DNA of 64,000 nucleotides, taken from contig NZ_VILB01000020.1 of NCBI RefSeq assembly GCF_009712035.1, forward strand, positions 38,670 through 102,669, written 5' to 3'. Of this stretch, positions 8,197 through 26,242 are shown one piece after another. Source of the DNA: Anabaena sp. UHCC 0187. GTDB lineage: Bacteria > Cyanobacteriota > Cyanobacteriia > Cyanobacteriales > Nostocaceae. The translations under genes and the position numbers were made by a program. Within the stretch, counting starts at the first letter, position 1, and each line of letters begins with the position of its first letter. The notes below the pieces were generated by a model, which searched no databases, was not told the origin of the DNA, and saw only the letters and a program-made list of their open reading frames with translations.

Positions 8197-8204
8197 GCGA
8201 TAGC
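8197..8204 (-). promoter_or_regulatory. Array box, exact (GCTATCGC)
   Basis: 39 nt before ATG 8157; preceded by a hairpin-plus-T-tract terminator. Confidence 0.75.
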
Positions 8205-8234
8205 ATTAAAAAAACCCAGGAATAACCCTGAGTC
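8205..8234 (-). terminator. Intrinsic terminator after the Gp37/Gp68-like gene
   Basis: Stem ACTCAGGG/CCTGGGT followed by seven T on the minus strand, directly abutting the box. Confidence 0.75.
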
Positions 8235-8242
8235 TTATGATA

Positions 8243-9286
8243 TTAAGGAAATTGACGTATCTGTAAATCCTGCGGGAACTCCATTAAAATCCCACCCTTT
8301 TTATCACTGATTTTGTAGGGTGCGTTATTTAACATGGGTTTTGCTCCGAGTTGTTTGATGAATACTGGGATTTGGGATTTTTGGCATTGGTGAACTAGCG
8401 ATCGCAGATTCTCAATATGACAAACACGGGCATTGTGTCCAGACTCCCCACCAATAATTACCCAACTTAATTGAGGTTTACACTGAGTACAAATTGCTAA
8501 TCCAGCTACGGGTGCAGCGTCAACAGCATAGAGAATATCCCGTTGTTCACCGCAACCGTCACAGATACCCGCACCAATAAACTCGCTTAAATACTCTGAT
8601 AAATCAAGTTCTTCAAGCAATGGTTCACAACTGAGAAACCGAATCTTGGCAGGTGTTTTTAGCAAATAATAAACATCTTCAGCGTCTTTCTGTGTGCATA
8701 CCGAATACCCCAACCACAGATGATCCAATGGTAACTTGAGTGCCGTTTCCTCTAAGAATCTGCAACTTTCCTCTACTAATTTGCGTACCCGTTTTGTTAA
8801 CTTGGTTTCCAGGATGTCAGATTTAGCTTTCACCAATGCAGACTTAATCTTTTGAAGACGGTCAGGACTGGTGAAATACCGATACATGATTTCCGGGCGT
8901 TTGGTGAGAATTTGGTAAATGTTCCACCGGGCGATGATCATGTATGCCACAGCTTCATCTATGAAATCGAAGGGTACATCATGATGAAATAAATCCCCCA
9001 AATTAGCGACAAATACGAGTTCTGGTTTTTCCCAGTTTCCCCATTCCAAAATCCATTTTAAGCGTTGAGGTTGTAGATTAATTTGTCCTGTCCATTGCAG
9101 TTTACCATTGGTTGATTTTCGGACTGTTCCTGCAAAAACATCAGAGATTTTGGGGTTGGGGTGATGTGAATGAATCCAACTTTCTAAAATTGCATAGCAA
9201 TTCGCGCACCCCTCAGAATCAGGGTCACAGCCCGTTACTATTGGCCATGTATTCCCAGTCCATTCAATATTAGAATCTTTGCTCAT
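8243..9286 (-). CDS. Phage Gp37/Gp68-like (DUF5131) protein
   Basis: 347 aa. It opens SNIEWTGNTWPIVTGCDPDSEGCANCYA, the signature of the DUF5131 'phage Gp37/Gp68' family, with a three-cysteine cluster like that of radical-SAM-type [4Fe-4S] proteins. ELVFVANLGDLFHHDVPF, QILTKRPE, IRFLSCEPLLEEL and WVIIGGESG are further family blocks. A CDGC...CTQC zinc-ribbon-like insert lies near residue 240. The exact role is unknown; the family is typical of phages and plasmids. Its start is 2 bp after the stop of the 69-aa gene, so the two share the box at 9538. Confidence 0.88.
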   Translation of the reverse strand: MSKDSNIEWTGNTWPIVTGCDPDSEGCANCYAILESWIHSHHPNPKISDVFAGTVRKSTNGKLQWTGQINLQPQRLKWILEWGNWEKPELVFVANLGDLFHHDVPFDFIDEAVAYMIIARWNIYQILTKRPEIMYRYFTSPDRLQKIKSALVKAKSDILETKLTKRVRKLVEESCRFLEETALKLPLDHLWLGYSVCTQKDAEDVYYLLKTPAKIRFLSCEPLLEELDLSEYLSEFIGAGICDGCGEQRDILYAVDAAPVAGLAICTQCKPQLSWVIIGGESGHNARVCHIENLRSLVHQCQKSQIPVFIKQLGAKPMLNNAPYKISDKKGGILMEFPQDLQIRQFP

Positions 9287-9288
9287 TT

Positions 9289-9498
9289 TTAACCTTCCAA
9301 GTTGAGATTTTTAGCTTGTTCAAGTAACTCCAGCATTTTCCTCAATGTTTGTTCACTCAGGTAAAGGTAACGCGCACTGTAGGTATCCGGGGCAGCATAG
9401 AAAAATCCAATTGTCATTTCGCATTTCTCACCAGTAATGTAATCAACATTTTCCTCATCATCACTGGATGTCTTGATATCAAAATCATCTATTTGCAT
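9289..9498 (-). CDS. Small acidic protein, array gene
   Basis: 69 aa, pI clearly acidic (DDFDIKTSSDDEENVDY), C-terminus helical. ATG 9498 lies 39 nt after its box and has a GGAGTA Shine-Dalgarno. It forms a two-gene unit with the DUF5131 gene. No family recognised. Confidence 0.7.
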   Translation of the reverse strand: MQIDDFDIKTSSDDEENVDYITGEKCEMTIGFFYAAPDTYSARYLYLSEQTLRKMLELLEQAKNLNLEG

Positions 9499-9537
9499 AC
9501 TTACTCCAAACTATTTAAAAGTAACCACAATCATTAA

Positions 9538-9545
9538 GCGATAGC
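9538..9545 (-). promoter_or_regulatory. Array box, exact
   Basis: 39 nt before ATG 9498; followed downstream by TGATTGTGGTT. Confidence 0.75.
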
Positions 9546-9574
9546 ATTAAAAAAAGCCGGGATAAACCCAGCTT
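9546..9574 (-). terminator. Intrinsic terminator
   Basis: Stem GCTGGG/CCCGGC with seven T, minus strand, abutting the box. Confidence 0.75.
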
Positions 9575-9583
9575 ATTTGTTAT

Positions 9584-9859
9584 TTAATTGCCATAGATAT
9601 CACCTTCTGGGATGAACTCATCATCAACAGGGGAATTACCATTAACAGTGAAAGTCTCTACTGATTGAGCTTTATTAATAAGTTTTCTGTATTCTTCCCT
9701 GACAGCTTCCCGACATTTATCTTGGAGAAGTTGAGTACACATATCCTCGTTTTCTCCTTCTGATATTGATGCCCAAATTGAACAGCCTAATGTGGCACTA
9801 TTAAAGTCGCCTAAATTAAACTTTCTTTCGTAGCTAACTGCGATGGTTTTGATGAACAT
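9584..9859 (-). CDS. Hypothetical protein, array gene
   Basis: 91 aa from ATG 9859, 42 nt after its box, with a GAGGTC Shine-Dalgarno. It opens with a beta strand (MFIKTIAVSYERKFNLGDFNSATLGCSIWASI) and ends in an acidic tail. This beta-first layout with S-x-R-KFNLG-F resembles a small family of phage proteins of unknown function that I cannot name with certainty. Confidence 0.68.
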   Translation of the reverse strand: MFIKTIAVSYERKFNLGDFNSATLGCSIWASISEGENEDMCTQLLQDKCREAVREEYRKLINKAQSVETFTVNGNSPVDDEFIPEGDIYGN

Positions 9860-9901
9860 TTTGACCTCTATTTTTTATTCAAAAGTAACCACAATCATGA
9901 A

Positions 9902-9909
9902 GCGATAGC
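9902..9909 (-). promoter_or_regulatory. Array box, exact
   Basis: 42 nt before ATG 9859; downstream TGATTGTGGTTAC matches that of the 9538 box almost exactly. Confidence 0.75.
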
Positions 9910-9940
9910 ATTAAAAAAAAGCCGGGATTTCTCCCAGCCC
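9910..9940 (-). terminator. Intrinsic terminator
   Basis: Stem GCTGGGA/TCCCGGC plus eight T on the minus strand. Confidence 0.78.
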
Positions 9941-9954
9941 ATAATTACAATTAA

Positions 9955-10179
9955 TTAGCTATTGTCAGGTTCATTTACTTTCCTTTGGGCAATCTCAGCA
10001 TTAATTTCTTGGTACATATCGTATGCACTAATGCAATCATCAGGTAGATTACTTGAATATTTATAACCATATCTGAGTAAGTTATAAAGTAAATTTATTT
10101 CATCATCATCGAAGTTAGCAAACCGAGATTCATTAGTTTCGGGATTATTACAAGTAGATTCAGACATATTTTTCTCCAT
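9955..10179 (-). CDS. Hypothetical protein, array gene
   Basis: 74 aa from ATG 10179 (32 nt from its box; a second Met at residue 5 is possible). Acidic and helical, DDDEINLLYNLLRYGYKY in the middle. No family recognised. Confidence 0.65.
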   Translation of the reverse strand: MEKNMSESTCNNPETNESRFANFDDDEINLLYNLLRYGYKYSSNLPDDCISAYDMYQEINAEIAQRKVNEPDNS

Positions 10180-10211
10180 TATGTAGCATTAATGATTACC
10201 AACATCACCAA

Positions 10212-10219
10212 GCGATAGC
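10212..10219 (-). promoter_or_regulatory. Array box, exact
   Basis: 32 nt before ATG 10179; followed by TGATGTTGGT. It lies only 5 bp from the stop of the preceding gene, and no terminator is seen here. Confidence 0.72.
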
Positions 10220-10224
10220 ATCAA

Positions 10225-10530
10225 TCACTTTCTCCAGTTGTCGGGGTTTTCAGGGGATGCCAGGGTTTCCTCATATTCTGAGTTAATGAATGCTAAATCA
10301 AACTGTTCTTTAGCTATTAATAACCCCAAGGTTTCAAACTTTGCATAGGCTTCTTCATCCCATATTGGTGCAGTTGCAATTGCTTCCAACAACCTTGAAT
10401 TATAATCTGTCAATACCCCATGATTATCCAATGATTCAATCACCTCTAATAACCGTTGCTTTGGTGGTTTTGGATGATAACATTTAGCAGGTAACAATGC
10501 TTTCGGGGTGAATCCTGTTAATAGTTTCAT
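10225..10530 (-). CDS. Hypothetical protein, array gene
   Basis: 101 aa; ATG 10530 has GGAGTC Shine-Dalgarno. The N-terminus is Pro/Lys-rich (LPAKCYHPKPPKQRLLEV), the rest acidic helices. It stands behind a weak box (10563). Function not recognised. Confidence 0.65.
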   Translation of the reverse strand: MKLLTGFTPKALLPAKCYHPKPPKQRLLEVIESLDNHGVLTDYNSRLLEAIATAPIWDEEAYAKFETLGLLIAKEQFDLAFINSEYEETLASPENPDNWRK

Positions 10531-10562
10531 TTGATAGACTCCTAATCAATTATACTCTAAAA

Positions 10563-10570
10563 GAGATAAC
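10563..10570 (-). promoter_or_regulatory. Array box, variant (GTTATCTC)
   Basis: Two mismatches from the consensus but at the standard distance (32 nt) before ATG 10530. Confidence 0.5.
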
Positions 10571-10602
10571 ATTAATAGGCTGGGAAACCCCAACCCGATT
10601 AA

Positions 10603-11052
10603 TTACTGATGAACTTCTAAAAAGTAGTGTTGAAGTTTCTGGAACAATTCAGTTAATAGCTCCCGGTTCTTCAAAGTTTCCAAACACCAATTCTCATTAG
10701 CGTAGTTTTTGGCATACAGATTAATTGCAGATTTGGTAATCAGATAAAACGCTATTTTTAACGAGCTTTCTGTATGAGATTCTAACAAATATTCTTTCTT
10801 GATTAGATTACCTAATCTACGGATTTCCTGTTCATTTATTGAAGCCAAGTAAATTTGTTCAACTGTTATGTTATACTGAAAATAATCACATTTTTCGGCG
10901 ATATTAACAAGTTCCAAATCATGTTTTATTTCGAATTCTGCAACTAATTCATGATTGCAATAAAAGTCTAATTCTGGTTCTGTTTCTCCCATACCAACAG
11001 ATTGATAATAATGTGTATGATGTTTGCAGTCTAAACAGCTAAATTCAGTCAT
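10603..11052 (-). CDS. Hypothetical Cys-containing protein, array gene
   Basis: 149 aa from ATG 11052, chosen because it lies 30 nt after the box; the longer frame would overlap it. The N-terminus has CLDCKHH and later DFYCNHE and KCDYF, a possible zinc site. The C-terminal half is helical. No family recognised. Confidence 0.65.
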   Translation of the reverse strand: MTEFSCLDCKHHTHYYQSVGMGETEPELDFYCNHELVAEFEIKHDLELVNIAEKCDYFQYNITVEQIYLASINEQEIRRLGNLIKKEYLLESHTESSLKIAFYLITKSAINLYAKNYANENWCLETLKNRELLTELFQKLQHYFLEVHQ

Positions 11053-11082
11053 TGGGGATTCCAAAATCAACACAATCATCAA

Positions 11083-11090
11083 GCGATAGC
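11083..11090 (-). promoter_or_regulatory. Array box, exact
   Basis: 30 nt before ATG 11052; followed by TGATTGTGTTG. Confidence 0.75.
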
Positions 11091-11121
11091 ATTAAAAAAG
11101 ACCCAGAAATAAACCTGAGTC
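11091..11121 (-). terminator. Intrinsic terminator
   Basis: Stem GACTCAGG/CTGGGTC with six T, minus strand. Confidence 0.72.
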
Positions 11122-11127
11122 AAATAA

Positions 11128-11493
11128 CTAGATAAAAGATGTTTTCTTATTAGCAAGTTCAATTAATTCATCTACAAATTTACATAAAGTTTCCATATCA
11201 TCATTTGGAGCTTTACGAACTTGTATAAACGTTTCATCTAAATCTGGTTTATCACCATCTCCCATCAGTCCGGGGTCAAACAAGATATGAACCAATGCTA
11301 CCTTAGTGTTCTTAGCCCATCTGGTAACTTGAATTTCATAATGTCCATATAATCCATCATCATAGCGAGAGTCTTTACATATAAACATGGAACTTTCTAA
11401 AAAGTCTATAAACTTTTTATCCTGTGAAATCCAGGTTCTTTTTTCCATTTGATTAATATCAAACAGTTCTGCGTACATTTCTAATTTCTCCAT
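11128..11493 (-). CDS. Hypothetical protein, array gene
   Basis: 121 aa from ATG 11493, 20 nt after the box. The longer frame starts upstream of the box and terminator and is rejected. The middle (GLYGHYEIQVTRW, VALVHILFDPGLMGDG) is beta-rich, and the tail is a charged helix. No family recognised. Confidence 0.65.
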   Translation of the reverse strand: MEKLEMYAELFDINQMEKRTWISQDKKFIDFLESSMFICKDSRYDDGLYGHYEIQVTRWAKNTKVALVHILFDPGLMGDGDKPDLDETFIQVRKAPNDDMETLCKFVDELIELANKKTSFI

Positions 11494-11513
11494 ATAGTCA
11501 ACAGCCCCAATAA

Positions 11514-11521
11514 GCGATAGC
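11514..11521 (-). promoter_or_regulatory. Array box, exact
   Basis: 20 nt before ATG 11493, the shortest spacing in the array apart from 19223. Confidence 0.7.
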
Positions 11522-11558
11522 TTTAAAAAAGTCAGCAATACCCTTATGTATTGCCAAC
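11522..11558 (-). terminator. Intrinsic terminator
   Basis: Stem TTGGCAATAC/GTATTGCTGA followed by six T on the minus strand. Confidence 0.75.
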
Positions 11559-11564
11559 TAATTG

Positions 11565-11843
11565 TTATAAATTATCTGGGTCATTCCAACCAGGAGGATT
11601 CAATACCAAAGTTGGTTCAAAAATAACATTTGCTCCATAATCTCTAACAAGGTCATCACAGTTTCTGAGAGATTGAATCAAACAACTGCTAAAATCTGGA
11701 GTACAAGCGTTACCATCAAATATATAGAAATCAGGATGCGAGGAAAGACTAACTTCGGAAGCATATCGTTGGTCAATCCATGTAGGATGATTTTCATAAA
11801 TTTTGATTTGGAATCCTTCGTAATGAACTATCATGTTATTCAT
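11565..11843 (-). CDS. Hypothetical protein, array gene
   Basis: 92 aa from ATG 11843, 35 nt after the box, with an AGGACACCC Shine-Dalgarno. Short alpha/beta protein with PSWx-like aromatic spacing (NHPTWIDQRYASEVSLSSH) and a Pro/Asn-rich C-terminus. No family recognised. Confidence 0.65.
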   Translation of the reverse strand: MNNMIVHYEGFQIKIYENHPTWIDQRYASEVSLSSHPDFYIFDGNACTPDFSSCLIQSLRNCDDLVRDYGANVIFEPTLVLNPPGWNDPDNL

Positions 11844-11878
11844 GGGTGTCCTAATTAATAAATAACCACAACCTCTAT

Positions 11879-11886
11879 GCGATAGC
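11879..11886 (-). promoter_or_regulatory. Array box, exact, with upstream GTTATC element
   Basis: 35 nt before ATG 11843. Upstream, on the sense strand, is GGTTATCAGTGGGGTT, the second conserved element found before about a third of the boxes. Confidence 0.75.
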
Positions 11887-11969
11887 AACCCCACTGATAA
11901 CCGGGGTGTAACTCTATAAAAAATCACCCCGATAGCTAAACATGACGTAAGCTATAGGGTGATAAAAGA

Positions 11970-12344
11970 TTAGATAAACAAGTGAGCAACATCAGAATTA
12001 ACGATGAATACCCCGGTGGTAATGTCATCTTTAAAACTGGAAGAATATACTTTACCCTGCCAAGGTTGACAAGGTATACGGGGATGTCTGAAAGCTTCAC
12101 CAACAATACCAAAATGTGAATCATCAACTTTGAGTCCTAAATATCTTTTAGAATCATGTTGATAGAGATAAAATTGGAAAGTTAGTTCTTCACCATTCCA
12201 GGGTTCAGCACGATTGAATGAACCAAACTGAACAGCGTAAACTTCGACAGCTAATAACATATCGTGTTCAATGTTAATAGCATGACAAGTTTGTCTTCTG
12301 TTGAGTCTAGAAAGATAAGTCTGATATTCGGATGCAGTAAACAT
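11970..12344 (-). CDS. Stand-alone relative of the RNA polymerase C-terminal domain
   Basis: 124 aa from ATG 12344, 39 nt after the box, with a GGAGAC Shine-Dalgarno. Residues from VYAVQFGSF...PWNGEEL to FGIVGEAFRHP match, block by block, the C-terminal region of the 884-aa polymerase (VYAVQHGSW...PWIGQT to LGLVGEQYRPY, residues 775-838). The identity of these blocks is seen directly in the two proteins. The domain has no assigned function; nucleic-acid or partner binding is a guess. Confidence 0.7.
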   Translation of the reverse strand: MFTASEYQTYLSRLNRRQTCHAINIEHDMLLAVEVYAVQFGSFNRAEPWNGEELTFQFYLYQHDSKRYLGLKVDDSHFGIVGEAFRHPRIPCQPWQGKVYSSSFKDDITTGVFIVNSDVAHLFI

Positions 12345-12383
12345 GATTGTCTCCAATAAATTCCAAAAAACCAACACCTCTTA

Positions 12384-12391
12384 GCGATAGC
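12384..12391 (-). promoter_or_regulatory. Array box, exact, interrupted upstream by an inserted element
   Basis: 39 nt before ATG 12344. Its upstream GTTATC element has been pushed 207 bp away by the insertion at 12395-12593. Confidence 0.75.
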
Positions 12392-12394
12392 GCC
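12387..12394. repeat. Left target-site duplication
   Basis: ATAGCGCC, repeated exactly at 12594-12601 on the other side of the inserted element. Confidence 0.8.
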
Positions 12395-12593
12395 CCAGGG
12401 GAAACGCATCTAAATCTTATTGACAAAATACCGTTTTAATGTATGAACCAAAAAATCCCTATTGATCGTTTGATTGATTTTTTTAGGATCATAGTGATGG
12501 ACTAAAGTATTGTCAATAAGTGGTCGTTAATGCGAATATTTTGGTCATTATTGAGATTGAATCGCCCTTATTGATAAGATGCGTTTCCCCTGG
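12395..12593. mobile_element. 199-bp MITE-like element
   Basis: Perfect 17-bp terminal inverted repeats (CCAGGGGAAACGCATCT at 12395-12411; its complement at 12577-12593), flanked by an exact 8-bp direct repeat. There is no coding capacity. Inner complementary stretches at 12416-12430 and 12508-12520 allow further folding. Removing it and one repeat restores the box-plus-GTTATC layout seen elsewhere. The transposase family that moved it is not identified; an 8-bp duplication is a constraint. Confidence 0.85.
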
Positions 12594-12601
12594 ATAGCGC
12601 C
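12594..12601. repeat. Right target-site duplication
   Basis: Second copy of ATAGCGCC; it continues into CCCCACCGATAACC, the displaced half of the regulatory element. Confidence 0.8.
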
Positions 12602-12662
12602 CCCACCGATAACCTTTCAGTAACGTTATCTTTGTTAACTTGGTTTCCAACATTGTCAGAGT

Positions 12663-12690
12663 ATTAAAAAAGCCGGGATTTCTCCCAGCT
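12663..12690 (-). terminator. Intrinsic terminator
   Basis: Stem AGCTGGGA/TCCCGGCT with six T on the minus strand, after the 74-aa gene. Confidence 0.75.
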
Positions 12691-12698
12691 ATTAAAAA

Positions 12699-12923
12699 TC
12701 AATATTCAACATCAATTTCACGATTAAGCCAATCATGAAAATCCTCACTACTCCATTGAGGTCGTAATATTTCCATCAAATCATCAGCTTGTCTTACTAA
12801 TTCTTCTTCTCCTTTATGATCCTCGCAAAACTTAATTAGTTTAAGACAGATATCTTCTAATTCAATAAGTGTACTGATACCATTGTTGATTCTAGCTTCT
12901 AATTCCATGAGTTCGTTATTCAT
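12699..12923 (-). CDS. Small array protein, paralogue of the 14.6-kb gene product
   Basis: 74 aa from ATG 12923, 32 nt after the box; the longer frame reads through the box. It aligns along its length with the 69-aa protein at 14623-14832: NELMELEARINNGISTLIELEDIC with ILNELETKINAGIASFDELDNVC, and LRPQWSSEDFHDWL with LRPDWSSVAFQAWM. Helical. Function unknown; the duplication shows the family is under maintenance. Confidence 0.7.
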   Translation of the reverse strand: MNNELMELEARINNGISTLIELEDICLKLIKFCEDHKGEEELVRQADDLMEILRPQWSSEDFHDWLNREIDVEY

Positions 12924-12955
12924 GATGTTTGTGATATTAACAGCACCACCTTTCA

Positions 12956-12963
12956 GCGACAGC
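12956..12963 (-). promoter_or_regulatory. Array box, variant (GCTGTCGC) with upstream GTTATC element
   Basis: 32 nt before ATG 12923; upstream sense strand reads GTTATCTGTGGGTGC. Confidence 0.65.
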
Positions 12964-13021
12964 GCACCCACAGATAACATTGGGGTAACGTCATCTAATT
13001 CTTTTTTGGAGATATCTATTG

Positions 13022-13063
13022 CATTACAATCCTGGTAAAACACTAAAGTATAGAAGCGATGGC
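13022..13063 (-). pseudogene. Relic array unit: box with no gene left
   Basis: A variant box GCCATCGC (13056-13063) is followed at 31 nt by ATG (13024) that reads only Met-Gln-stop, and then by the next gene's regulatory element. The spacing is that of a normal unit, so the gene body was probably deleted. Confidence 0.4.
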
Positions 13064-13118
13064 ACAAAAAACTCATTTTCGTTTATAATAAAAACATAGT
13101 CTAAAGTTAAACGAAATT

Positions 13119-13280
13119 ATGGAAGTTATCTTATCTCCAACAGAACCAAGAAGAATTAAACCACCTGAACCCAACCTTACATTAGTTAATGAATTATTCC
13201 CTGATTTTGCCAATGTAAAAATAAATTATCAAGAACTCGGCAAAGAATTGGAGAAAAAATTAACAACTAAGAAAAAGTAA
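13119..13280 (+). CDS. Small basic hypothetical protein on the opposite strand
   Basis: 53 aa, the only plus-strand frame in the array that looks coding. It has a Pro-rich start (SPTEPRRIKPPEPN), a short helix, and a Lys-rich tail. A TATAAT hexamer lies at 13084-13089. No Shine-Dalgarno and no box. Function unknown; it could be chance, but codon use resembles its neighbours. Confidence 0.4.
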   Translation: MEVILSPTEPRRIKPPEPNLTLVNELFPDFANVKINYQELGKELEKKLTTKKK

Positions 13281-13346
13281 AAACTAAAAAAATGTAGCGA
13301 TCACCTCAAAAAGAAGCGATCGCTATAATAAACCCCGACTAATTAA

Positions 13347-13691: not shown

Positions 13692-13708
13692 GGTGTCCTC
13701 CGGTTCAT

Positions 13709-13742
13709 AAAAAAAGCCGAGTCGGGGTTTCCCAAACTCAGC
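13709..13742 (-). terminator. Terminator-like hairpin inside a gene group
   Basis: GCTGAGTTTGGGAAACCCCGACTCGGC followed by T-tract, minus strand; here no box follows it. Confidence 0.6.
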
Positions 13743-13750
13743 ATTGTTTG

Positions 13751-14862: not shown

Positions 14863-14870
14863 GCGATAGC
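14863..14870 (-). promoter_or_regulatory. Array box, exact
   Basis: 30 nt before ATG 14832; the sequence after it (TTCAGGGTTTTGGTG) is identical to that after the 15469 box. Confidence 0.75.
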
Positions 14871-15468: not shown

Positions 15469-15476
15469 GCGATAGC
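15469..15476 (-). promoter_or_regulatory. Array box, exact
   Basis: 32 nt before ATG 15436. Confidence 0.75.
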
Positions 15477-16245: not shown

Positions 16246-16253
16246 ACGATAGT
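16246..16253 (-). promoter_or_regulatory. Array box, variant (ACTATCGT)
   Basis: 36 nt before ATG 16209; the outer bases differ but the inner CTATCG core is kept. Confidence 0.55.
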
Positions 16254-17347: not shown

Positions 17348-17355
17348 GCGATAGC
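17348..17355 (-). promoter_or_regulatory. Array box, exact
   Basis: 56 nt before ATG 17291, the longest spacing in the array; followed by TTTTTGATGTTGGTTT. Confidence 0.7.
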
Positions 17356-17875: not shown

Positions 17876-17883
17876 ACGATAGT
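17876..17883 (-). promoter_or_regulatory. Array box, variant (ACTATCGT)
   Basis: 31 nt before ATG 17844; same variant as 16246. It abuts the stop of the preceding gene. Confidence 0.55.
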
Positions 17884-18609: not shown

Positions 18610-18617
18610 GCGATAGC
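18610..18617 (-). promoter_or_regulatory. Array box, exact
   Basis: 32 nt before ATG 18577; followed by TTTTTGATGTTGTTG. Confidence 0.75.
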
Positions 18618-19222: not shown

Positions 19223-19230
19223 GCGATAGC
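19223..19230 (-). promoter_or_regulatory. Array box, exact
   Basis: 19 nt before TTG 19203. Confidence 0.7.
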
Positions 19231-19743: not shown

Positions 19744-19751
19744 GCGATAGC
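19744..19751 (-). promoter_or_regulatory. Array box, exact
   Basis: 29 nt before ATG 19714. Confidence 0.75.
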
Positions 19752-20114: not shown

Positions 20115-20122
20115 GCGATAGC
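20115..20122 (-). promoter_or_regulatory. Array box, exact
   Basis: 31 nt before ATG 20083. Confidence 0.75.
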
Positions 20123-20608: not shown

Positions 20609-20639
20609 GATGAATACCAAAAAATAACGCCCCCTGTCA

Positions 20640-20647
20640 GCGATAGC
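20640..20647 (-). promoter_or_regulatory. Array box, exact, with upstream element
   Basis: 31 nt before ATG 20608; upstream sense strand TTATCTGTGGGGGC. Confidence 0.78.
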
Positions 20648-20667
20648 GCCCCCACAGATAAATAAAC

Positions 20668-20699
20668 AATAACTCCAATCTTGTTAGACTGGAGTTAAG
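20668..20699 (-). terminator. Hairpin terminator without long T-tract
   Basis: AACTCCAGTCTAACAAGATTGGAGTT, nearly perfect stem, followed by ATTGTTTATTT; its twin lies at 21359-21391. Confidence 0.6.
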
Positions 20700-20703
20700 T
20701 AAA

Positions 20704-21297
20704 TTAATAAACTTGTCGAATTGTCAGGTTGAGTCTGCCACCATTCTTGAGCAAACTGGAAGTACCTGGTATTATCTTCTTAATGCCATGAAAAGCAAGT
20801 CTGGAATCACCATGCAAAATCAAGATGTCGCCGCTTTTGAGCAAAATCTCTTGAGTTGGAGCGTTTCTTTTGTTGCCACCGATTAAGAAGATTGCATCAT
20901 CACCAAGACTAATAGAGATAATCGCTGGTTTCAGATTCTTCTCAGAATTATCTTGATGAAGTCCGAGTTTACCTGCTGACTTATAGAAATTAATCAAGCA
21001 AGTTTGAGGATGATAATCGGGTTCACCAATCTGATTAGCCAAATCTTTAGCGAGATTATTAATTATCTCTGGTATTGGTGTCCAAACTCTTCCAGTAGTT
21101 GGATGCTTTTTGGTGTATCTATAACCTTTAGTATCAGAAATCCAGCCAAGTTCACCGCAGTTAGTCATTTGGTAATTAAAAGGTTTACCAGATGGCATTA
21201 CAGGAGTGAATAAAGGAGATTGTCTGGCTACTTCTCTGCAAACTTTGAGGATTTCAGTCTGCTGTTCTAATGTTAAATGTTGTTGTAAGTGAAGCAT
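20704..21297 (-). CDS. AlkB-like 2-oxoglutarate/Fe(II) dioxygenase
   Basis: 197 aa from ATG 21297, 32 nt after the box. AlkB family: INFYKSAGKLGLHQDNSEK (HxD iron ligands), FLIGG, LKSGDILILHGDSRLAFHGIKKI (distal His) and RLNLTIRQV (R-x5-R binding 2-oxoglutarate). It oxidatively removes alkyl groups from nucleic-acid bases. A second, diverged dioxygenase lies just upstream in the array. Confidence 0.9.
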   Translation of the reverse strand: MLHLQQHLTLEQQTEILKVCREVARQSPLFTPVMPSGKPFNYQMTNCGELGWISDTKGYRYTKKHPTTGRVWTPIPEIINNLAKDLANQIGEPDYHPQTCLINFYKSAGKLGLHQDNSEKNLKPAIISISLGDDAIFLIGGNKRNAPTQEILLKSGDILILHGDSRLAFHGIKKIIPGTSSLLKNGGRLNLTIRQVY

Positions 21298-21329
21298 GGT
21301 TAAATTCCCAATAAAATCATCACTTTTCC

Positions 21330-21337
21330 GCGATAGC
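21330..21337 (-). promoter_or_regulatory. Array box, exact, with upstream element
   Basis: 32 nt before ATG 21297; upstream TTATCTGTGGGGGC. The stretch from the box through the hairpin is nearly identical to that at 20640-20699. Confidence 0.78.
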
Positions 21338-21358
21338 GCCCCCACAGATAAATAAACA

Positions 21359-21391
21359 ATAACTCCAATCTATTGCTAAACTGGAGTTATT
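21359..21391 (-). terminator. Hairpin terminator, twin of 20668
   Basis: AACTCCAGTTTAGCAATAGATTGGAGTT stem, minus strand, between genes 21403 and 20704. Confidence 0.6.
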
Positions 21392-21402
21392 TATGTTTAC
21401 AA

Positions 21403-21930
21403 CTAAACTATTGGGAAATAACCTTTCTGTTGATTCAACTGCCAGAGATTAATACTAAATCTTTCTTCACTCAAGATTTCAGTTACTCCATGAAGTTTCT
21501 TACAATTAAACTCAATGATATCACCATCATTAAGTTGATAATCTTTACCATCATAATTAAATATACAACTACCAAGATTCACAGTTCTAGCAATTGGTCT
21601 AGAATAAGTATGATCCCGATGTGATATAATCAATCCGGTACTTTGAATATTACCAATCTTGCCACCAAAAGTTAACAAGCCGATATTAGTTCCGGGATAA
21701 ACTCGCTGACAGAAATTCCAAAGTCTATCATTATGATAAGCTTTAGTGATTGTTCCAGGAGTTCTCAAATCACACTCATGAAATAACCAAAGACGATATC
21801 TACCTCTAGCGTAACTAGAAACATCGCTAGTCATTAAATTGACGCTTTCTCGACAAAAGCTTCTTAAATCAGCTAAAGTTTCGGATTTAACTTTGCTAAT
21901 TAATTTCAAATCACTGGGGTTAGGATTCAT
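21403..21930 (-). CDS. Probable 2OG-Fe(II) dioxygenase-like protein
   Basis: 175 aa from ATG 21930, 30 nt after the box. The pattern SHRDHTYSRPIARTVNLG (HxD), YQLNDGDIIEFNCKKLHGV (distal His) and ERFSINLWQL (Arg plus strand) has the order of a double-stranded beta-helix oxygenase, with a longer aromatic N-terminus than AlkB. Substrate unknown. Confidence 0.6.
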   Translation of the reverse strand: MNPNPSDLKLISKVKSETLADLRSFCRESVNLMTSDVSSYARGRYRLWLFHECDLRTPGTITKAYHNDRLWNFCQRVYPGTNIGLLTFGGKIGNIQSTGLIISHRDHTYSRPIARTVNLGSCIFNYDGKDYQLNDGDIIEFNCKKLHGVTEILSEERFSINLWQLNQQKGYFPIV

Positions 21931-21960
21931 GAAATTCTCCAAATTACTCAACTCCCCTCA

Positions 21961-21968
21961 GCGATAGC
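21961..21968 (-). promoter_or_regulatory. Array box, exact, with upstream element
   Basis: 30 nt before ATG 21930; upstream GGTTATCTGTGGGGGC. Confidence 0.78.
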
Positions 21969-22138
21969 GCCCCCACAGATAACCTATCAACAACATTGAG
22001 CGCCAGCGATTCTAAATCAAGTTTGCAAAGAATAGCCCTGGACTGCTTGCAGGACACGGCGGTATTGGCTCAACGAGTCGGTTGATGTGATTGTTAGTGA
22101 TTAAGCCAGTATCCCCAATGAGAATACCAGCTTATCAA

Positions 22139-22531
22139 TTAAACTTGAGTTAATAACCATTCAACACAACGTTGGATTAACTCTGCATGAGAGCGATCGC
22201 TAATATAAATCAATTTCACATTCTCATGTTGTTTTGCAAATTCAACAATGTGGATGAGATGTTTGAAATACATTCCACGATACCAATTGGGTTCTGCTCC
22301 CCAAACTTTCAATTTACCTTCCTGATAACGGGGAAGATAGGCTTTGATTTCCTGCCAGAGTATGATTCTTTGTTGTTCAATGGTACGGTCATATCTCCAA
22401 AGATGAGAACTGCCAAGAACATCATAATCTTGAGTCCAACCCTCACTAACATTGAAAACCTTGTCACTAAGTCTAAATTTGGTCTTTTCAACTTGACAGA
22501 TTTGGGGATTGAATTGTTCGAGAGTAATCAT
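22139..22531 (-). CDS. Hypothetical protein, array gene
   Basis: 130 aa from ATG 22531, 31 nt after the box. The C-terminal part (LIHIVEFAKQHENVKLIYISDRSHAELIQRCVEWLL) is Rossmann-like alpha/beta. No family recognised. Confidence 0.65.
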   Translation of the reverse strand: MITLEQFNPQICQVEKTKFRLSDKVFNVSEGWTQDYDVLGSSHLWRYDRTIEQQRIILWQEIKAYLPRYQEGKLKVWGAEPNWYRGMYFKHLIHIVEFAKQHENVKLIYISDRSHAELIQRCVEWLLTQV

Positions 22532-22562
22532 GGTAAATACCAAACAACATCACTCTCATTCC

Positions 22563-22570
22563 GCGATAGC
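22563..22570 (-). promoter_or_regulatory. Array box, exact, with upstream element
   Basis: 31 nt before ATG 22531; upstream GGTTATCGGTGGGGGC. Confidence 0.78.
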
Positions 22571-22638
22571 GCCCCCACCGATAACCTCCCGGTAACTCAA
22601 GACTGCAACGCCAACAGAAAACCCAGAGGTATTTGAAC

Positions 22639-22676
22639 AATAAAAAAAGCCCGGATTCCCATAGAGAACCAGGACT
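22639..22676 (-). terminator. Intrinsic terminator
   Basis: AGTCCTGGTTCTCTATGGGAATCCGGGCT with seven T, minus strand. Confidence 0.7.
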
Positions 22677-22682
22677 AAAGGA

Positions 22683-22976
22683 CTACAAATTAACTAAAAT
22701 CTGACCAACTTCATCATATTCAGCATCACGATGGGGCGGGTATTCTTCACTTTCATTGCTAGTAAAATTAAGAAAATGATTTTTACCATGATAGTAATTA
22801 CCAACAAATAAATCACAACGATGATGATATAATACAAGTTGATGATTGGTTAAATAGGGTTGAATATGCTCACGTTCAAAGCGGGTTTTTCGAGTAAGTT
22901 CACCAAAGTCAATACCCTTTCTAGGTTGTTCAGGAGGTAAACCACTACCAAATTTACTGGGGATGTTAATAGCCAT
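22683..22976 (-). CDS. Hypothetical protein, array gene
   Basis: 97 aa, ATG 22976, 33 nt after a variant box. It starts MAINIPSKFG; the next gene's protein starts MAINILSKAN, so the two may share a translation-initiation segment copied between units. HPLVLYHHRCDLFVG-like beta/aromatic centre. No family recognised. Confidence 0.65.
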   Translation of the reverse strand: MAINIPSKFGSGLPPEQPRKGIDFGELTRKTRFEREHIQPYLTNHQLVLYHHRCDLFVGNYYHGKNHFLNFTSNESEEYPPHRDAEYDEVGQILVNL

Positions 22977-23009
22977 AAATTCCTGATGTTAGATAATCAA
23001 AAACGCCAA

Positions 23010-23017
23010 GTGATAAC
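23010..23017 (-). promoter_or_regulatory. Array box, variant (GTTATCAC)
   Basis: 33 nt before ATG 22976. Confidence 0.55.
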
Positions 23018-23056
23018 ATTAAAAAAAAGCCCTAATCCCCAAAGGAGACTAGGACT
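23018..23056 (-). terminator. Intrinsic terminator
   Basis: AGTCCTAGTCTCCTTTGGGGATTAGGGCT with eight T, minus strand. Confidence 0.75.
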
Positions 23057-23065
23057 TTAAACTAC

Positions 23066-23377
23066 TTAGTATGGAATATCATCAGGATTGGCAGGTTCAT
23101 TACCAATACCTTGAGATTTATTACGCTTCTGGTAATATCTGGTTCTTTCACCAAGCAAATCATCTACGGTATAACCCAAATCTGCAATGAACTTATCAAA
23201 CTTGGCTTGATCCATCTTATGAATGTCATGAGTTAACCATTCCTGTTCAAAGATTTTATAACCTTCCTCACCTTTAACACGATTATCAATCTTGTACTGT
23301 TCCCAAGCTAAAACTCGAATTCCATCCTTGAGTTGAGAAAGTTTCTTGTTAGCTTTGGAAAGAATGTTGATAGCCAT
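23066..23377 (-). CDS. Hypothetical protein, array gene
   Basis: 103 aa, ATG 23377, 31 nt after the box. Helical, with DLGYTVDDLLGERTRYYQKRNKS near the end. The first residues resemble those of the 22683 gene product. No family recognised. Confidence 0.65.
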   Translation of the reverse strand: MAINILSKANKKLSQLKDGIRVLAWEQYKIDNRVKGEEGYKIFEQEWLTHDIHKMDQAKFDKFIADLGYTVDDLLGERTRYYQKRNKSQGIGNEPANPDDIPY

Positions 23378-23408
23378 AACGATACCGGGTAAACAACGCC
23401 CCCCCTGC

Positions 23409-23416
23409 GCGATAGC
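23409..23416 (-). promoter_or_regulatory. Array box, exact, with upstream element
   Basis: 31 nt before ATG 23377; upstream GTTATCGGTAGGGGC. Confidence 0.78.
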
Positions 23417-23545
23417 GCCCCTACCGATAACTTCCAGGTAACTCAGGACTCCAACGCCAACGAGTAGACCATGTTTACAGTGTTTGTCGGGGGGTTTTAG
23501 AATGAGCGATCGCTATGGTCAAGGTAAGCATCGCTACATTTCCGC

Positions 23546-23580
23546 AATAAAAAAAACCCAGCATTAAGGAACACTGGATT
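23546..23580 (-). terminator. Intrinsic terminator
   Basis: AATCCAGTGTTCCTTAATGCTGGGTT with eight T, minus strand. It lies unusually far (130 bp) from the next box. Confidence 0.72.
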
Positions 23581-23585
23581 TAATG

Positions 23586-23960
23586 TTATGCAAGTATTAC
23601 TTTAGTACGTTGAACTCGTTGGATATTAGCAGCAGTACCCCGACTTTTACCATCCCAAATTGCTAAACCATAATCAGCGATACTGCACATTTGTTTATCC
23701 CTATCAACATAATTACCAAGCACCCCAACTACATTAAAACCACTGGTATTGCGGGGTTTACCATTACCATTAAACATCGCATAATAAACGGTAACATTTT
23801 GATAACCTTGGGATTTTAGATACTGTTGAATTAAATTATCAACACCGGGGGCATCACCAATGATTACTTTAAATTCCAGTTCAATGATTTTGTTTAAACT
23901 GATAATTGTTGGTGTTGGTAATTCATGAATACACCGACTACCAGAGATTATTACTATCAT
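23586..23960 (-). CDS. SLOG-domain protein (YspA-like)
   Basis: 124 aa, ATG 23960, 31 nt after the box. VIISGSRCIHELP, FKVIIGDAPGVDNLIQQYL and DYGLAIWDGKSRGTAANIQ are the phosphate-binding and substrate motifs of the YspA branch of SLOG Rossmannoid proteins, proposed to bind nucleotide-derived ligands. Neighbour of DUF4326 and a macro-domain fragment. Confidence 0.82.
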   Translation of the reverse strand: MIVIISGSRCIHELPTPTIISLNKIIELEFKVIIGDAPGVDNLIQQYLKSQGYQNVTVYYAMFNGNGKPRNTSGFNVVGVLGNYVDRDKQMCSIADYGLAIWDGKSRGTAANIQRVQRTKVILA

Positions 23961-23991
23961 GGGTTTATTTTAAATCAACTAAATTCATATT

Positions 23992-23999
23992 GCGATAGC
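23992..23999 (-). promoter_or_regulatory. Array box, exact
   Basis: 31 nt before ATG 23960; a shortened upstream element (TTATCTGTAGGTGC) is present. Confidence 0.75.
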
Positions 24000-24030
24000 A
24001 CCTACAGATAAATAGATGCTACCGAAACTC

Positions 24031-24417
24031 CTAAAAATATTCGCTGTATGCAGATTTAAACCAATCTTGTTTGATTATCCATTCAGCAGCCCTGATAATA
24101 TTGTCACCATGACACTGATAGGGTTTACACCAACAAGTTAGAATTATTTCTTCTCCAGCCACTAACTTTAAACAGATATCCCTCAAAGCACTTGTAGTTT
24201 CATCAAGTTCACCTGTTTGAGACCATTTAAGAATCTTATGGTAAAGATATTTATGAAAGAAACTACAAACTTTCTCTCTTTCACTTTCTCCATTACCAGA
24301 CATTTTAAATGGATTATGTAAGGGTGATTCTGGTAAATCATAATAACTATTAGCTCTACCAATATAGATTCTATTTTCACCAATAAACCCGGTGGTTTTG
24401 CCATTTGCAACTTTCAT
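24031..24417 (-). CDS. DUF4326 protein
   Basis: 128 aa from ATG 24417, 30 nt after the box. YIGRANSYYDLPESPLHNPFKM and ILTCWCKPYQCHGDNIIRAAEWI are the hallmark blocks of DUF4326 (paired Cys-W-C and C-H-G-D). The family often sits with SLOG proteins and is thought to act on nucleotides. Adjacent to the YspA-like SLOG gene. Confidence 0.85.
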   Translation of the reverse strand: MKVANGKTTGFIGENRIYIGRANSYYDLPESPLHNPFKMSGNGESEREKVCSFFHKYLYHKILKWSQTGELDETTSALRDICLKLVAGEEIILTCWCKPYQCHGDNIIRAAEWIIKQDWFKSAYSEYF

Positions 24418-24447
24418 ATCTATACCAAAAAACAACATCCCCTCTCA

Positions 24448-24455
24448 GCGATAGC
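24448..24455 (-). promoter_or_regulatory. Array box, exact, with upstream element
   Basis: 30 nt before ATG 24417; upstream GTTATCGGTGGGGGC. Confidence 0.78.
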
Positions 24456-24522
24456 GCCCCCACCGATAACTTTGGTTCAAACACAATGATGTTAATATCT
24501 AAGTAATTGAATGCAGACACTA

Positions 24523-24699
24523 TTAATGGTTTTTAGTAGGAAAGTTGATAATGTATTTGGGTGTCCCTGGGTTCTCTGTAATCAATATTTTACCAATCAT
24601 TAATTCCTGGTTTTCACAAGCTGATTTATAAACCCGGAAATTCCCAGGATAACGCTGTTTAAATTGTAGTGCTAATCCTTTACCCTTAAATTCTATCAT
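24523..24699 (-). pseudogene. Macro-domain fragment (DarG-like), truncated
   Basis: 58 aa. KGKGLALQFKQRYPGNF, then VYKSAC and KYIINFPTKNH, match the core of ADP-ribose-binding macro domains of the DarG type. The N-terminal strand that carries the first ADP-ribose contact is missing, and the protein stops at the NFPTK-H motif instead of continuing. Uniquely among array genes, its ATG lies 11 nt from the previous terminator with no box between. A deletion that removed box and 5' end would explain both. Confidence 0.72.
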
Positions 24700-24710
24700 G
24701 TTACGTCTTT

Positions 24711-24745
24711 AAAAAAAGCCTAACTCCTTTTAGGAATTAGACTTT
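24711..24745 (-). terminator. Intrinsic terminator
   Basis: AAGTCTAATTCCTAAAAGGAGTTAGGCTT with seven T, minus strand. Confidence 0.75.
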
Positions 24746-24757
24746 AAATTACATTAA

Positions 24758-24967
24758 CTAAAATGGAACTGATGGATCTACTTTTGCAGATTCTATCAAA
24801 CCATTATCTATAAGACACTTCCCAGCTTCGATTGCTGATTGTGTATCTTCTTCGGGTTTCCAAGAATCACCGTTTACAGAATAAACAACTGATTCCTCAC
24901 AGGCAATAACAAAGATATCGTTATCCTTGTAATCAACTCTAGTTGAGTAAATTGCTGTGTTAACCAT
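24758..24967 (-). CDS. Small hypothetical protein, array gene
   Basis: 69 aa, ATG 24967 with GGAGGTTTC Shine-Dalgarno, 34 nt after the box. Beta strands (AIYSTRVDYKDNDIFVIACEESVVYSVNG) then a short helix; compact fold suggested. No family recognised. Confidence 0.67.
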   Translation of the reverse strand: MVNTAIYSTRVDYKDNDIFVIACEESVVYSVNGDSWKPEEDTQSAIEAGKCLIDNGLIESAKVDPSVPF

Positions 24968-25001
24968 GACGAAACCTCCAAATAAAAACTAACTTCTCTT
25001 T

Positions 25002-25009
25002 GCGATAGC
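25002..25009 (-). promoter_or_regulatory. Array box, exact, with upstream element
   Basis: 34 nt before ATG 24967; upstream GTTATCGGTGGGGGT. Confidence 0.78.
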
Positions 25010-25034
25010 ACCCCCACCGATAACTTTGGTTTTA

Positions 25035-25376
25035 TTACTCAGGTAAACAAGAAATCACTTCCAAATCGAGTTCCTTAGCTACAGATTCAATTTGTTTCCA
25101 GACTTCAGCATTATCAACAAACAATCGTTTTACATAGAGTCTGAGTTTAGTATCAGGTAATGTCAACATTCTAATTCCCAAATTCTCGGCATCCTGTTTA
25201 ACGGTTCTCACGGACTCAAATAAATCATCACCATATTTAGTCGTTAAAGTTCCCTGAACTCCCCGTAATTGGGCATGACTTTCATCTTCAAAATCAACTT
25301 GGGCAATCCATTTATTTTCAGTGCCAGGATACATTTGATAAATACCGATTCCCGTGGTAAATAATTGTCCAATCAT
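25035..25376 (-). CDS. Hypothetical protein, array gene
   Basis: 113 aa, ATG 25376, 27 nt after a variant box. N-terminal beta sheet (TTGIGIYQMYPGTENKWIAQVDFED), C-terminal helix. No family recognised. Confidence 0.66.
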   Translation of the reverse strand: MIGQLFTTGIGIYQMYPGTENKWIAQVDFEDESHAQLRGVQGTLTTKYGDDLFESVRTVKQDAENLGIRMLTLPDTKLRLYVKRLFVDNAEVWKQIESVAKELDLEVISCLPE

Positions 25377-25403
25377 GATACAATCCTTTATATTATTGAA
25401 TAA

Positions 25404-25411
25404 GCAATAGC
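25404..25411 (-). promoter_or_regulatory. Array box, variant (GCTATTGC)
   Basis: 27 nt before ATG 25376; one mismatch, with GATTATCGGTAAT upstream. Confidence 0.58.
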
Positions 25412-25445
25412 ATTACCGATAATCAATAACGCTATTTGCTATTTG

Positions 25446-25799
25446 TTATTGCTGAACTAACTCAACAACAGATTCAGCGAGTAATCCCCGCACCTTAATC
25501 TCCAGTGGAAATCTGCGGACTCGTTTTGATTGTCGGGGTGTACCGTCGTCTCCCTCAAAATACCCATTATTAGCAATTACCCAATCTCGGAATCTGGGGA
25601 ACTCCAATTGTTTCAAACCAATGTAAGTGATAAAACTGGTGAATCCCGAACTTTCATCGGTGGATTCCTGCCAGTTAAACTTGTTCGAGTAAGTGCCGAC
25701 GATGGTAATGCGATCGCTAAGTTCCACCACCTGATAATTCCCATGTGGACTAACTTGTAAAACCTTACCTTCAATACCCGCAAAATTGATTGTGTTCAT
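25446..25799 (-). CDS. Hypothetical protein, array gene
   Basis: 117 aa, ATG 25799, 31 nt after the box. First half beta-rich (EGKVLQVSPHGNYQVVELSDRITIVGTY), resembling a small barrel of SH3/OB size; C-terminus helical and basic in the middle (RQSKRVRRF). No family recognised. Confidence 0.65.
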   Translation of the reverse strand: MNTINFAGIEGKVLQVSPHGNYQVVELSDRITIVGTYSNKFNWQESTDESSGFTSFITYIGLKQLEFPRFRDWVIANNGYFEGDDGTPRQSKRVRRFPLEIKVRGLLAESVVELVQQ

Positions 25800-25830
25800 T
25801 ATTAAAATCTCAAAACACCAAAACTAAAAA

Positions 25831-25838
25831 GCGATAGC
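25831..25838 (-). promoter_or_regulatory. Array box, exact
   Basis: 31 nt before ATG 25799. Confidence 0.75.
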
Positions 25839-25857
25839 ATCAATGATTTTTGTAATC

Positions 25858-25943
25858 TTCATCTAACTATATAAAAGTTGATTTTATTAGTGCTTGTGCT
25901 AAAATCAAACAATGGCTAGATTTCAGTTAACTAGATGATGAAG
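25858..25943. repeat. Long imperfect inverted repeat between array genes
   Basis: Outer arms CTTCATC (25858) and GATGAAG (25937-25943), inner arms GATTTTA/TAAAATC around a 13-nt loop. It could form a branched hairpin about 85 nt long. It lies in an otherwise gene-free spacer and has no T-tract. Role unknown: regulatory RNA, recombination site or decayed mobile element are all possible. Confidence 0.45.
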
Positions 25944-25949
25944 TGATGG

Positions 25950-25976
25950 GAATAGATTGACTCATGCCTATTCCCT
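25950..25976. terminator. Hairpin after the last array gene
   Basis: GGGAATAG and CTATTCCC pair around an 11-nt loop, just beyond the stop at 25983. No T-tract. Confidence 0.5.
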
Positions 25977-25982
25977 TTCTCA

Positions 25983-26204
25983 TTAATCCTGGGGGTAACT
26001 ATCAAACCAGATTATTTCACTATCAGCAAACCCAATCACCTTAGCTAAACCATCTTCACAGTTAACAATTAACTTACCCGAACCTGAAATATCAACAACT
26101 CCAGTAATGCGGGGTTCATTGAATAACAGATTTAATTGTTCAACCGTTAATTGAATTGAGTTTGAAGGTTTGATTCCTGTACGTTTAAAGAATGCAGTGG
26201 TCAT
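25983..26204 (-). CDS. Small hypothetical protein, promoter-proximal end of the array
   Basis: 73 aa from ATG 26204, 30 nt after the box. Beta-rich (RITGVVDISGSGKLIVNCEDGLAKVIGF) with a helical middle; a small DNA-binding or scaffold fold is possible but not shown. It is divergent from the polymerase operon. Confidence 0.66.
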   Translation of the reverse strand: MTTAFFKRTGIKPSNSIQLTVEQLNLLFNEPRITGVVDISGSGKLIVNCEDGLAKVIGFADSEIIWFDSYPQD

Positions 26205-26234
26205 GATATTAACTAACAACAACACCACCCCAAA

Positions 26235-26242
26235 GCGATAGC
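26235..26242 (-). promoter_or_regulatory. Array box, exact, first unit of the array
   Basis: 30 nt before ATG 26204. No matching box faces the polymerase operon on the plus strand, so that operon probably uses the host polymerase. Confidence 0.75.

Follow-up and report, generated by a model that had tools for sequence, protein, structure and literature searches.

Boxes of a plasmid-like element in Anabaena as probable DNA-hairpin promoters for a predicted two-barrel RNA polymerase

How a long series of small genes, most of them standing singly behind the same short DNA word, comes to be transcribed is the question raised by a contig of the cyanobacterium Anabaena sp. UHCC 0187 (NZ_VILB01000020.1). 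The window, meaning the whole stretch of 64,000 nucleotides (nt) that was analysed, carries between its positions 8197 and 26242 an array of such genes on the minus strand, with the eight-base box GCTATCGC ahead of most of them. Beside the array, a divergent plus-strand operon encodes a partner protein of 537 amino acids (aa; 26291..27904) and, directly after it, an 884-aa protein (27907..30561) that is a predicted RNA polymerase. The boxes are probably template-strand DNA-hairpin promoters, at which the element's own two-barrel polymerase would transcribe about 30 small genes, mostly singly. The first-pass annotation of this DNA had proposed a dedicated promoter for single-gene units, tied to that polymerase; this is still the best reading, with the correction that the signal is a structural mini-hairpin and not a plain motif. 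The hairpin nature of the box is new relative to that annotation. Comparison among plasmids establishes a rigid two-part motif, covariation in the stem, conserved loop ends, restriction to the element and a loop that largely tracks the polymerase clade, and we infer that the box is a promoter and that the 884-aa enzyme reads it. Genome-wide specificity, the fold of the polymerase, and the agreement of loop type with the polymerase tree were tests able to fail, and they did not.

The array is dense and regular. A recount returned the first-pass figure of 25 exact minus-strand copies of GCTATCGC in 8197-26242, and the window as a whole holds 30, against 0.36 expected from shuffled sequences. Among 37 tabulated array genes, 28 have an ATG start and a box with paired ends around T-N-N-C. 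The spacing first described as about 30-42 nt before a start codon is borne out: the box-to-ATG distance, with competing ATGs resolved by choosing whichever fits it, is 29-42 nt in 27 of the 28 genes and 56 nt in one (box 17348..17355). The 29th boxed gene (18853-19203) lacks an ATG start and follows GCTATCGC at 19223..19230, and the 30th (25035-25376) follows the variant GCTATTGC at 25404..25411, in which a loop end is altered and the stem is intact. Three box-less genes (8243, 14174 and 18624) are second members of close or overlapping pairs, and four (10225, 13347, 13751 and 17885) have no perfect box. The other variants are ACTATCGT at 16246..16253 and 17876..17883 and GTTATCAC at 23010..23017, all altered on both sides of the stem, and GCTGTCGC at 12956..12963, with GACA as its template loop. 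At the ends of the array, GCTATCGC at 8197..8204 serves the gene at 7195-8157, and the copy at 26235..26242 belongs to the outermost unit, which adjoins the polymerase operon. A further unit with GCTATCGC on the minus strand lies to the right of the array (34160..34167, ATG 31 nt downstream).

The structural character of the box emerges from boxes near relatives of the polymerase. These read GCTATCGC on a plasmid of strain WA102, ACTATCGT and CCTATCGG in Synechocystis B12, GTTTTCAC and ACTTTCGT in Cyanobacterium aponinum, GCTACCGC and GCTAACGC in Planktothrix, and CCTACCGG and GCTACCGC in Phormidium. A seeded search with stem bases unscored found 136 sites, of which 4 lay too near an end; in the remaining 132, the outer pair 1-8 has the largest pairing excess among 435 column pairs. 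Pairs 0-9, -1/10 and 2-7 are also within the top five, the fifth being -2/10, which is not nested with them. Once GC/GC and seed stems are set aside, full pairing persists in 10 of the 25 sites left, where 1.8 would be expected. The box is an inverted repeat whose paired stem can be exchanged, with one-sided exceptions. An exchange on both sides of the stem, ACTATCGT against GCTATCGC, is seen twice in aligned orthologous units of the window and WA102. In an additional Planktothrix plasmid, 10 of 16 array genes carry paired boxes (one of these ten is probably fortuitous), and many of the units resemble earlier ones. On comparative grounds the box is well supported as a mini-hairpin in which the stem covaries and the loop ends are conserved. 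Covariation of outer bases also occurs in operators that have changed along with their protein, and six of the eight positions of GCTATCGC are palindromic, as they would be in a double-stranded dyad bound by a dimeric regulator that aids the host RNA polymerase. Such a dyad is nevertheless quite unlikely, given that single plasmids hold several stems with few mixed half-sites (four ACTATCGT and four CCTATCGG in B12; seven GTTTTCAC alongside other stems in C. aponinum), that the box centre is asymmetric and can drop one base in a lineage with three-base loops, and that sigma-70-like promoter pairs are not in excess.

The loop indicates which strand may fold. On the sense strand the box is laid out as X-Y-T-N-N-C-Y'-X', with loop ends fixed as T and C (A and G on the template) and variable middle bases (TATC, TACC, TTTC, TGTC, TAAC, TGCC); the template strand consequently carries the same paired ends around G-N-N-A. 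Among sites selected with the loop as part of the score, 129 of 132 have GNNA as the template loop, and the closing pair on the template is C-G in 110, T-A in 12 and A-T in 1 of 123. DNAs in which a GNA or GNNA loop sits on two or more G-C pairs form unusually stable mini-hairpins, GCGAAGC having a melting temperature of 78 °C (PMC4686876). Extrusion of the promoter of phage N4 requires a loop-closing G:C pair together with loop-end A and G; its template-strand loop resists single-strand probes, and its stem bases can be replaced if pairing is kept (PMC4496689). The N4-type loop ends and C-G closing pair are found on the template strand here, and because the invariants of the box match the N4 requirements, a template-strand DNA hairpin is favoured. 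Since the form of the box fits the template strand and the box covaries, it is better regarded as a structural signal than as a plain sequence motif.

A scan blind to the loop ranked T-N-N-C first in 17 of 25 stretches, some of which overlap (L005 with G116; L014 with G123/L062; L and G numbers denote loci and genomes). These 17 were the window (W), WA102, B12, C. aponinum, five Planktothrix stretches, Phormidium, L005, L006, L007, L009, G334, G116 and G309; T-N-N-C was not first in L003, L004, L011, L012, L014, G123, G178 and G314. When both strands of 18 loci were scanned, TACC, TGTC or TATC led the array strand in L005, L006, L007, L009, L013, L015 and L060, and the triloop TTC led in L014 (9) and L062 (13); TTTC tied for second in L011. 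No such tetraloop appeared in L001, L003, L004, L010, L012, L026 and L059, and L008 gave a tie. The triloop variants CCTTCGG and CCTGCGG of L062 correspond to GAA and GCA on the template. Inspection by eye found GCTTCGC three times and ACTTCGT once in L001, which adjoins L014 in the polymerase tree. L008 has GCTATCGC before two genes.

The second part of the motif lies on the gene side. Numbered from box base 1, it reads G14-R15...T19-G20 and begins 5 nt past the box; across the 132 sites, at rigid spacing, G14 is kept in 64%, T19 in 83% and G20 in 80%. The first-pass annotation had recognised this element as GRNGKTG and was right about its presence, whereas its four-base gap is wrong: a pattern with that gap has 0 matches because the spacing is five. 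Terminator-like sites number 21 (10.8 expected), 19 of them on the minus, or array, strand. Ten of these 19 end 9-23 nt ahead of one of the 30 boxes and two overlap boxes. Terminator stems lie 9 nt before the boxes at 9538..9545, 11514..11521 and 23010..23017, 10 nt before those at 9902..9909, 11083..11090 and 20115..20122, and 14, 23 and 21 nt before those at 19744..19751, 20640..20647 and 21330..21337, respectively. Sigma-70-like -35/-10 pairs are at chance level (67 against 66.5 expected), in keeping with the earlier statement that none is conserved; that statement has to be qualified for 9 of 30 boxes, which are directly preceded by a five-of-six match to TATAAT, seen as TTTAAT.

These -10-like hexamers, together with a box 29-42 nt ahead of the start codon, the usual distance of a leader, would suit a hairpin that works in the mRNA. 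In that case the host RNA polymerase would make the transcripts, and a structure in the 5' leader, bound by a protein, would control translation or decay. The loop speaks against this, since in mRNA it would be U-N-N-C, for which we know of no stable loop class, whereas the template shows GNNA or GNA. Terminators that end 9-23 nt before 10 boxes leave little room for an upstream promoter, G-T mismatches are no commoner than A-C mismatches (4 and 4), and Rfam 15 gave 0 matches at gathering score in 8000-26300. An mRNA hairpin would also leave the tie between loop and polymerase clade unexplained, and we consider it unlikely. A structured repeat at every boundary, single-gene units that all point the same way and an array content that varies between plasmids also recall an integron-like array, in which the boxes would be recombination sites and each unit a mobile cassette. 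That proposal appears very improbable: both attC cores (GTTRRRY and RYYYAAC) were near 0 of 30 boxes, an integrase not having been specifically searched for, and the box stands at a constant distance from the start codon, with its rigid element on the gene side.

Read as a template-strand promoter hairpin, the box should belong to the element, and the complete motif largely does. The 5.1-Mb genome contains 185 copies of bare GCTATCGC, a number due in part to its resemblance to the host repeat HIP1. The pattern GCTATCGC-N10-TG occurs 25 times in the whole genome, 20 of them within the element on one strand, and a control pattern occurs twice. The full motif is accordingly not equally frequent elsewhere; equal frequency away from start codons is the outcome that the first-pass annotation had named as damaging to its proposal. 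In a comparison of 16 genomes from the genus, box sites number 25, 22 and 27 in the three whose polymerase is at least 93% identical, 7 in G178 (polymerase 66% identical), 4 in G388, which has about half of a polymerase, and 1-10 in each of the 11 polymerase-less genomes. Identity with HIP1 was considered and rejected: GCTATCGC differs by a single base from the host repeat GCGATCGC (1,756 sites) but has its own downstream element, and the boxes of other plasmids are GCTACCGC, GCTGTCGC, ACTATCGT and GTTTTCAC. Other genomic clusters of GCTATCGC that were inspected (contigs C5 and C2) are mostly host repeats of the GCGCTTCGCTATCGC type without the downstream element. One of them, at G000:C5:154825-160186 (L063), is a GCGCTTCGCTATCGC cluster with 11 GCTATCGC on one strand and is unrelated to the box.

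The enzyme beside the array has no Pfam domain, and its family has no convincing match in the PDB by sequence (best E 1.9). One of 45 relatives matches Pfam RdRP (E 0.00024). The protein carries GRDTDGD at residues 471-477, with the DxDGD motif at 473-477; D473, G476 and D477 are invariant and D475 nearly so in 45 aligned rows. Its structural model (predicted local distance difference test, pLDDT, 85) has a two-barrel fold and matches plant RDR2, QDE-1, gp64 of phage P32, gp62 of phage P74 and crAss phi14:2. Because these matches are two-barrel RNA polymerases and the DxDGD motif is present, the protein is predicted to be a two-barrel (double-psi beta-barrel) single-chain RNA polymerase. The best fold matches, QDE-1 and RDR2, differ from the array system in being eukaryotic RNA-interference enzymes, and we know of no promoter array associated with them. 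The family had no match among phage records, one viral contig matched, and the PHROGs family phrog_34895, to which no function is assigned, matches it. Relatives on cyanobacterial plasmids number 33 records at E 1e-5 and 50 at E 0.01, and 26 of 388 genomes of the class have one at E 1e-30, many of them distant (about 32% identical). The WA102 plasmid shares with the window a 93% identical polymerase, ParA, adenine deaminase and part of the array order; because of this likeness, the contig is likely a plasmid or an integrated plasmid. The 537-aa partner evolves faster than the polymerase (38% in Anabaena azotica), has a hydrophobic stretch and a weak tape-measure PHROG match, and could be modelled only poorly (pLDDT 63.7).

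Loop type largely follows polymerase clade in these comparisons. The polymerase tree groups the window with G334 and G391 (TATC), Nostoc ATCC 43529 with Nostoc NMS8 and Anabaena azotica (TGTC), and Cylindrospermum with G178 (TACC), and it has a Planktothrix group (TACC); L001 and L014 (triloop) are joined by long branches flagged as unsure by the program, and L007, L008, L011 and L031 are not placed firmly. For G178 and G396 the loop was assigned from pattern matches across the whole genome: G178 has 11 GCTACCGC and one GCTATCGC at 4054754-4064665 and two more near 4114000, and G396 has 9 GCTGTCGC on a contig separate from its polymerase. The TGTC loop expected from the tree in Nostoc NMS8 was found: of its 22 genomic GCTGTCGC-N10-TG sites, 10 lie on the contig that carries the polymerase, and 9 of these fall within 9 kb. 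The control pattern occurs 5 times in that genome. Where the window and G178 align at 94% identity over 841 bp, the loop differs (TATC against TACC) in two of three boxes and is the same in one. Polymerase and array can also decay together. On the UHCC 0315A plasmid (Dolichospermum; L024 19153-26386), the polymerase gene matches residues 1-431 only, ending before the catalytic motif, and few boxed genes were seen beside it, a natural case of joint decay; boxes are kept in four of four array-side genes examined, three GCTATCGC and one GCTATTGC. On the WA102 chromosome (G391 C1:3760000-3776000, L071), eight paired boxes are left over next to a piece of the polymerase gene that contains one stop; the same genome has an intact polymerase copy on another contig.

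Several observations weigh against hairpin promoters read by the neighbouring enzyme. In the stem, full pairing is lacking at 15 of 44 non-GC/GC sites, two G-C pairs are present in only 97 of 132 stems, T-A closing pairs deviate from the N4 rule, non-Watson-Crick cells (4 G-T, 4 A-C) favour neither strand, and one orthologous pair of the window and WA102 differs one-sidedly (GCTATCGC against ACTATCGC). Nearest-neighbour DNA folding gave 0 kcal/mol for twelve 8-mers on either strand, a calculation that may lack the GNNA bonus. Beyond the hairpin, Phormidium keeps the downstream TG poorly (1 of 9 sites) and Planktothrix does so for R15 (5 of 23), and nine of the 30 boxes follow the -10-like hexamers described above. 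No such loop appears in the single stretch scanned from the distant Pseudanabaena (L026), loops are mixed in Lyngbya L009, and L012 has a polymerase but no array was found. Most of the G178 array lies 43 kb from the polymerase, and the G396 array is on another contig.

In the mechanism favoured here, the template strand would fold a stem of 2-4 base pairs (bp), closed by C-G or sometimes T-A, around a loop of the form GNNA (GNA in one lineage). The hairpin would be extruded by negative supercoiling, or form in single-stranded DNA, as at N4 early promoters. So short a stem could suffice because the GNNA class is stable, although the folding program did not show it. The two-barrel polymerase would then dock on the hairpin and initiate within the conserved G14...T19-G20-N-T region; N4-like spacing, with the hairpin centre at -11, would place the start near box position 15-16, beside the purines 14-15. 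Many runs would stop at the intrinsic terminator ahead of the next box. The divergent polymerase operon, where no box was seen in the 75 nt upstream, would be started by the host enzyme.

The closest parallel is provided by the early promoters of the N4 virion RNA polymerase (PMC4496689, PMC12633501), which are likewise compact signals with a template mini-hairpin, loop-end G and A, a C-G closing pair and stem bases exchangeable with pairing kept. The template GCGAAGC of L014/L062 and L001 is a core that also occurs in the P1 oligonucleotide of PMC12633501. In contrast, the N4 enzyme is T7-like, has 3,500 aa and is carried in the virion, whereas the neighbouring enzyme here is a plasmid protein of predicted two-barrel fold. 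N4 has three early promoters with a 3-base loop and a longer stem (about 5 bp), whereas the array has about 30 boxes with mostly 4-base loops and 2-4 bp stems, 3-base loops occurring only in L014/L062 and L001. By analogy, the boxes would work like the N4 hairpin promoter but fall outside its family, since the two polymerases are unrelated and both loop and stem differ in length. YonO of prophage SPbeta is similarly the product of a mobile element and has its two barrels in one chain of about 100 kDa, and YonO-like proteins have been noted in cyanobacteria (PMC5467207). It differs in transcribing phage late genes, its promoter sequence is given there as not known, and the likeness is one of type, not of direct sequence comparison. 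Gp64 and gp96 of Thermus phage P23-45 are two-barrel phage RNA polymerases with dedicated promoter motifs, but these are AT-rich and GC-rich, and the word hairpin is absent from the main text of PMC10770324, section 12 of which discusses phage and plasmid single-subunit enzymes. The phage folds nearest to the 884-aa protein are P32 gp64 and P74 gp62.

We lean towards a second, independent origin of DNA-hairpin promoters, in which a plasmid two-barrel polymerase, kin to YonO and the RNA-interference polymerases, reads extruded template GNNA or GNA mini-hairpins in a private system of about 30 one-gene units, with loop and polymerase co-evolving. Among the open-access papers searched, none is concerned, by its title and the opening of its abstract, with hairpin promoters in cyanobacterial plasmids or for a two-barrel polymerase. 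PMC5467207 left open the promoter of single-chain polymerases, their need for helpers and the targets of the cyanobacterial ones. The array offers a concrete, testable answer, with targets, promoter and polymerase adjacent and with natural compensatory variants and several loop types. If correct, hairpin promoters arose in two unrelated polymerase superfamilies, cyanobacterial plasmids run a private transcription system that is possibly gated by supercoiling or single-strandedness, and the array shows where a little-known polymerase family begins transcription.

The remaining GCTATCGC boxes are at 10212..10219, 12384..12391, 14863..14870, 15469..15476, 18610..18617, 23992..23999 and 25831..25838, and at six positions where a second upstream element, GTTATCGGTGGGGGC or similar, abuts the box: 11879..11886, 21961..21968, 22563..22570, 23409..23416, 24448..24455 and 25002..25009. 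The same element is seen at the units of 20640 and 21330. At its position, some B12 and C. aponinum units have a G-rich stretch, and other units have the T-tract of a terminator.

Among the annotated cargo of the array are an exonuclease (DEDDh matches in PADLOC and a PHROG match), an AlkB-like oxygenase, a SLOG protein, DUF4326, DUF5895 and DUF5131. The DUF5131 gene matches the PADLOC candidate models PDC-M41B (E 1e-47) and PDC-M30B (E 1e-44). Three polymerase relatives of about 1,200 aa (P0117, P0118 and P0119) carry an AlkB-type domain (PF13532), the AlkB-like gene being cargo in the window array too. The polymerase gene of C. aponinum (L021 23693-27509) is interrupted by about 1.2 kb of other DNA, and that of B12 (L020 28713-31293) matches in several pieces; the neighbouring array is boxed in both. 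Beside the polymerase operon of Planktothrix L074, a gene annotated as RNA ligase family (17094-17927) has the box ATTATCGT. Further along the window, two UvrD-like helicase genes (51159-52997 and 54711-55970), the first with a NERD nuclease domain, lie near a radical SAM gene.

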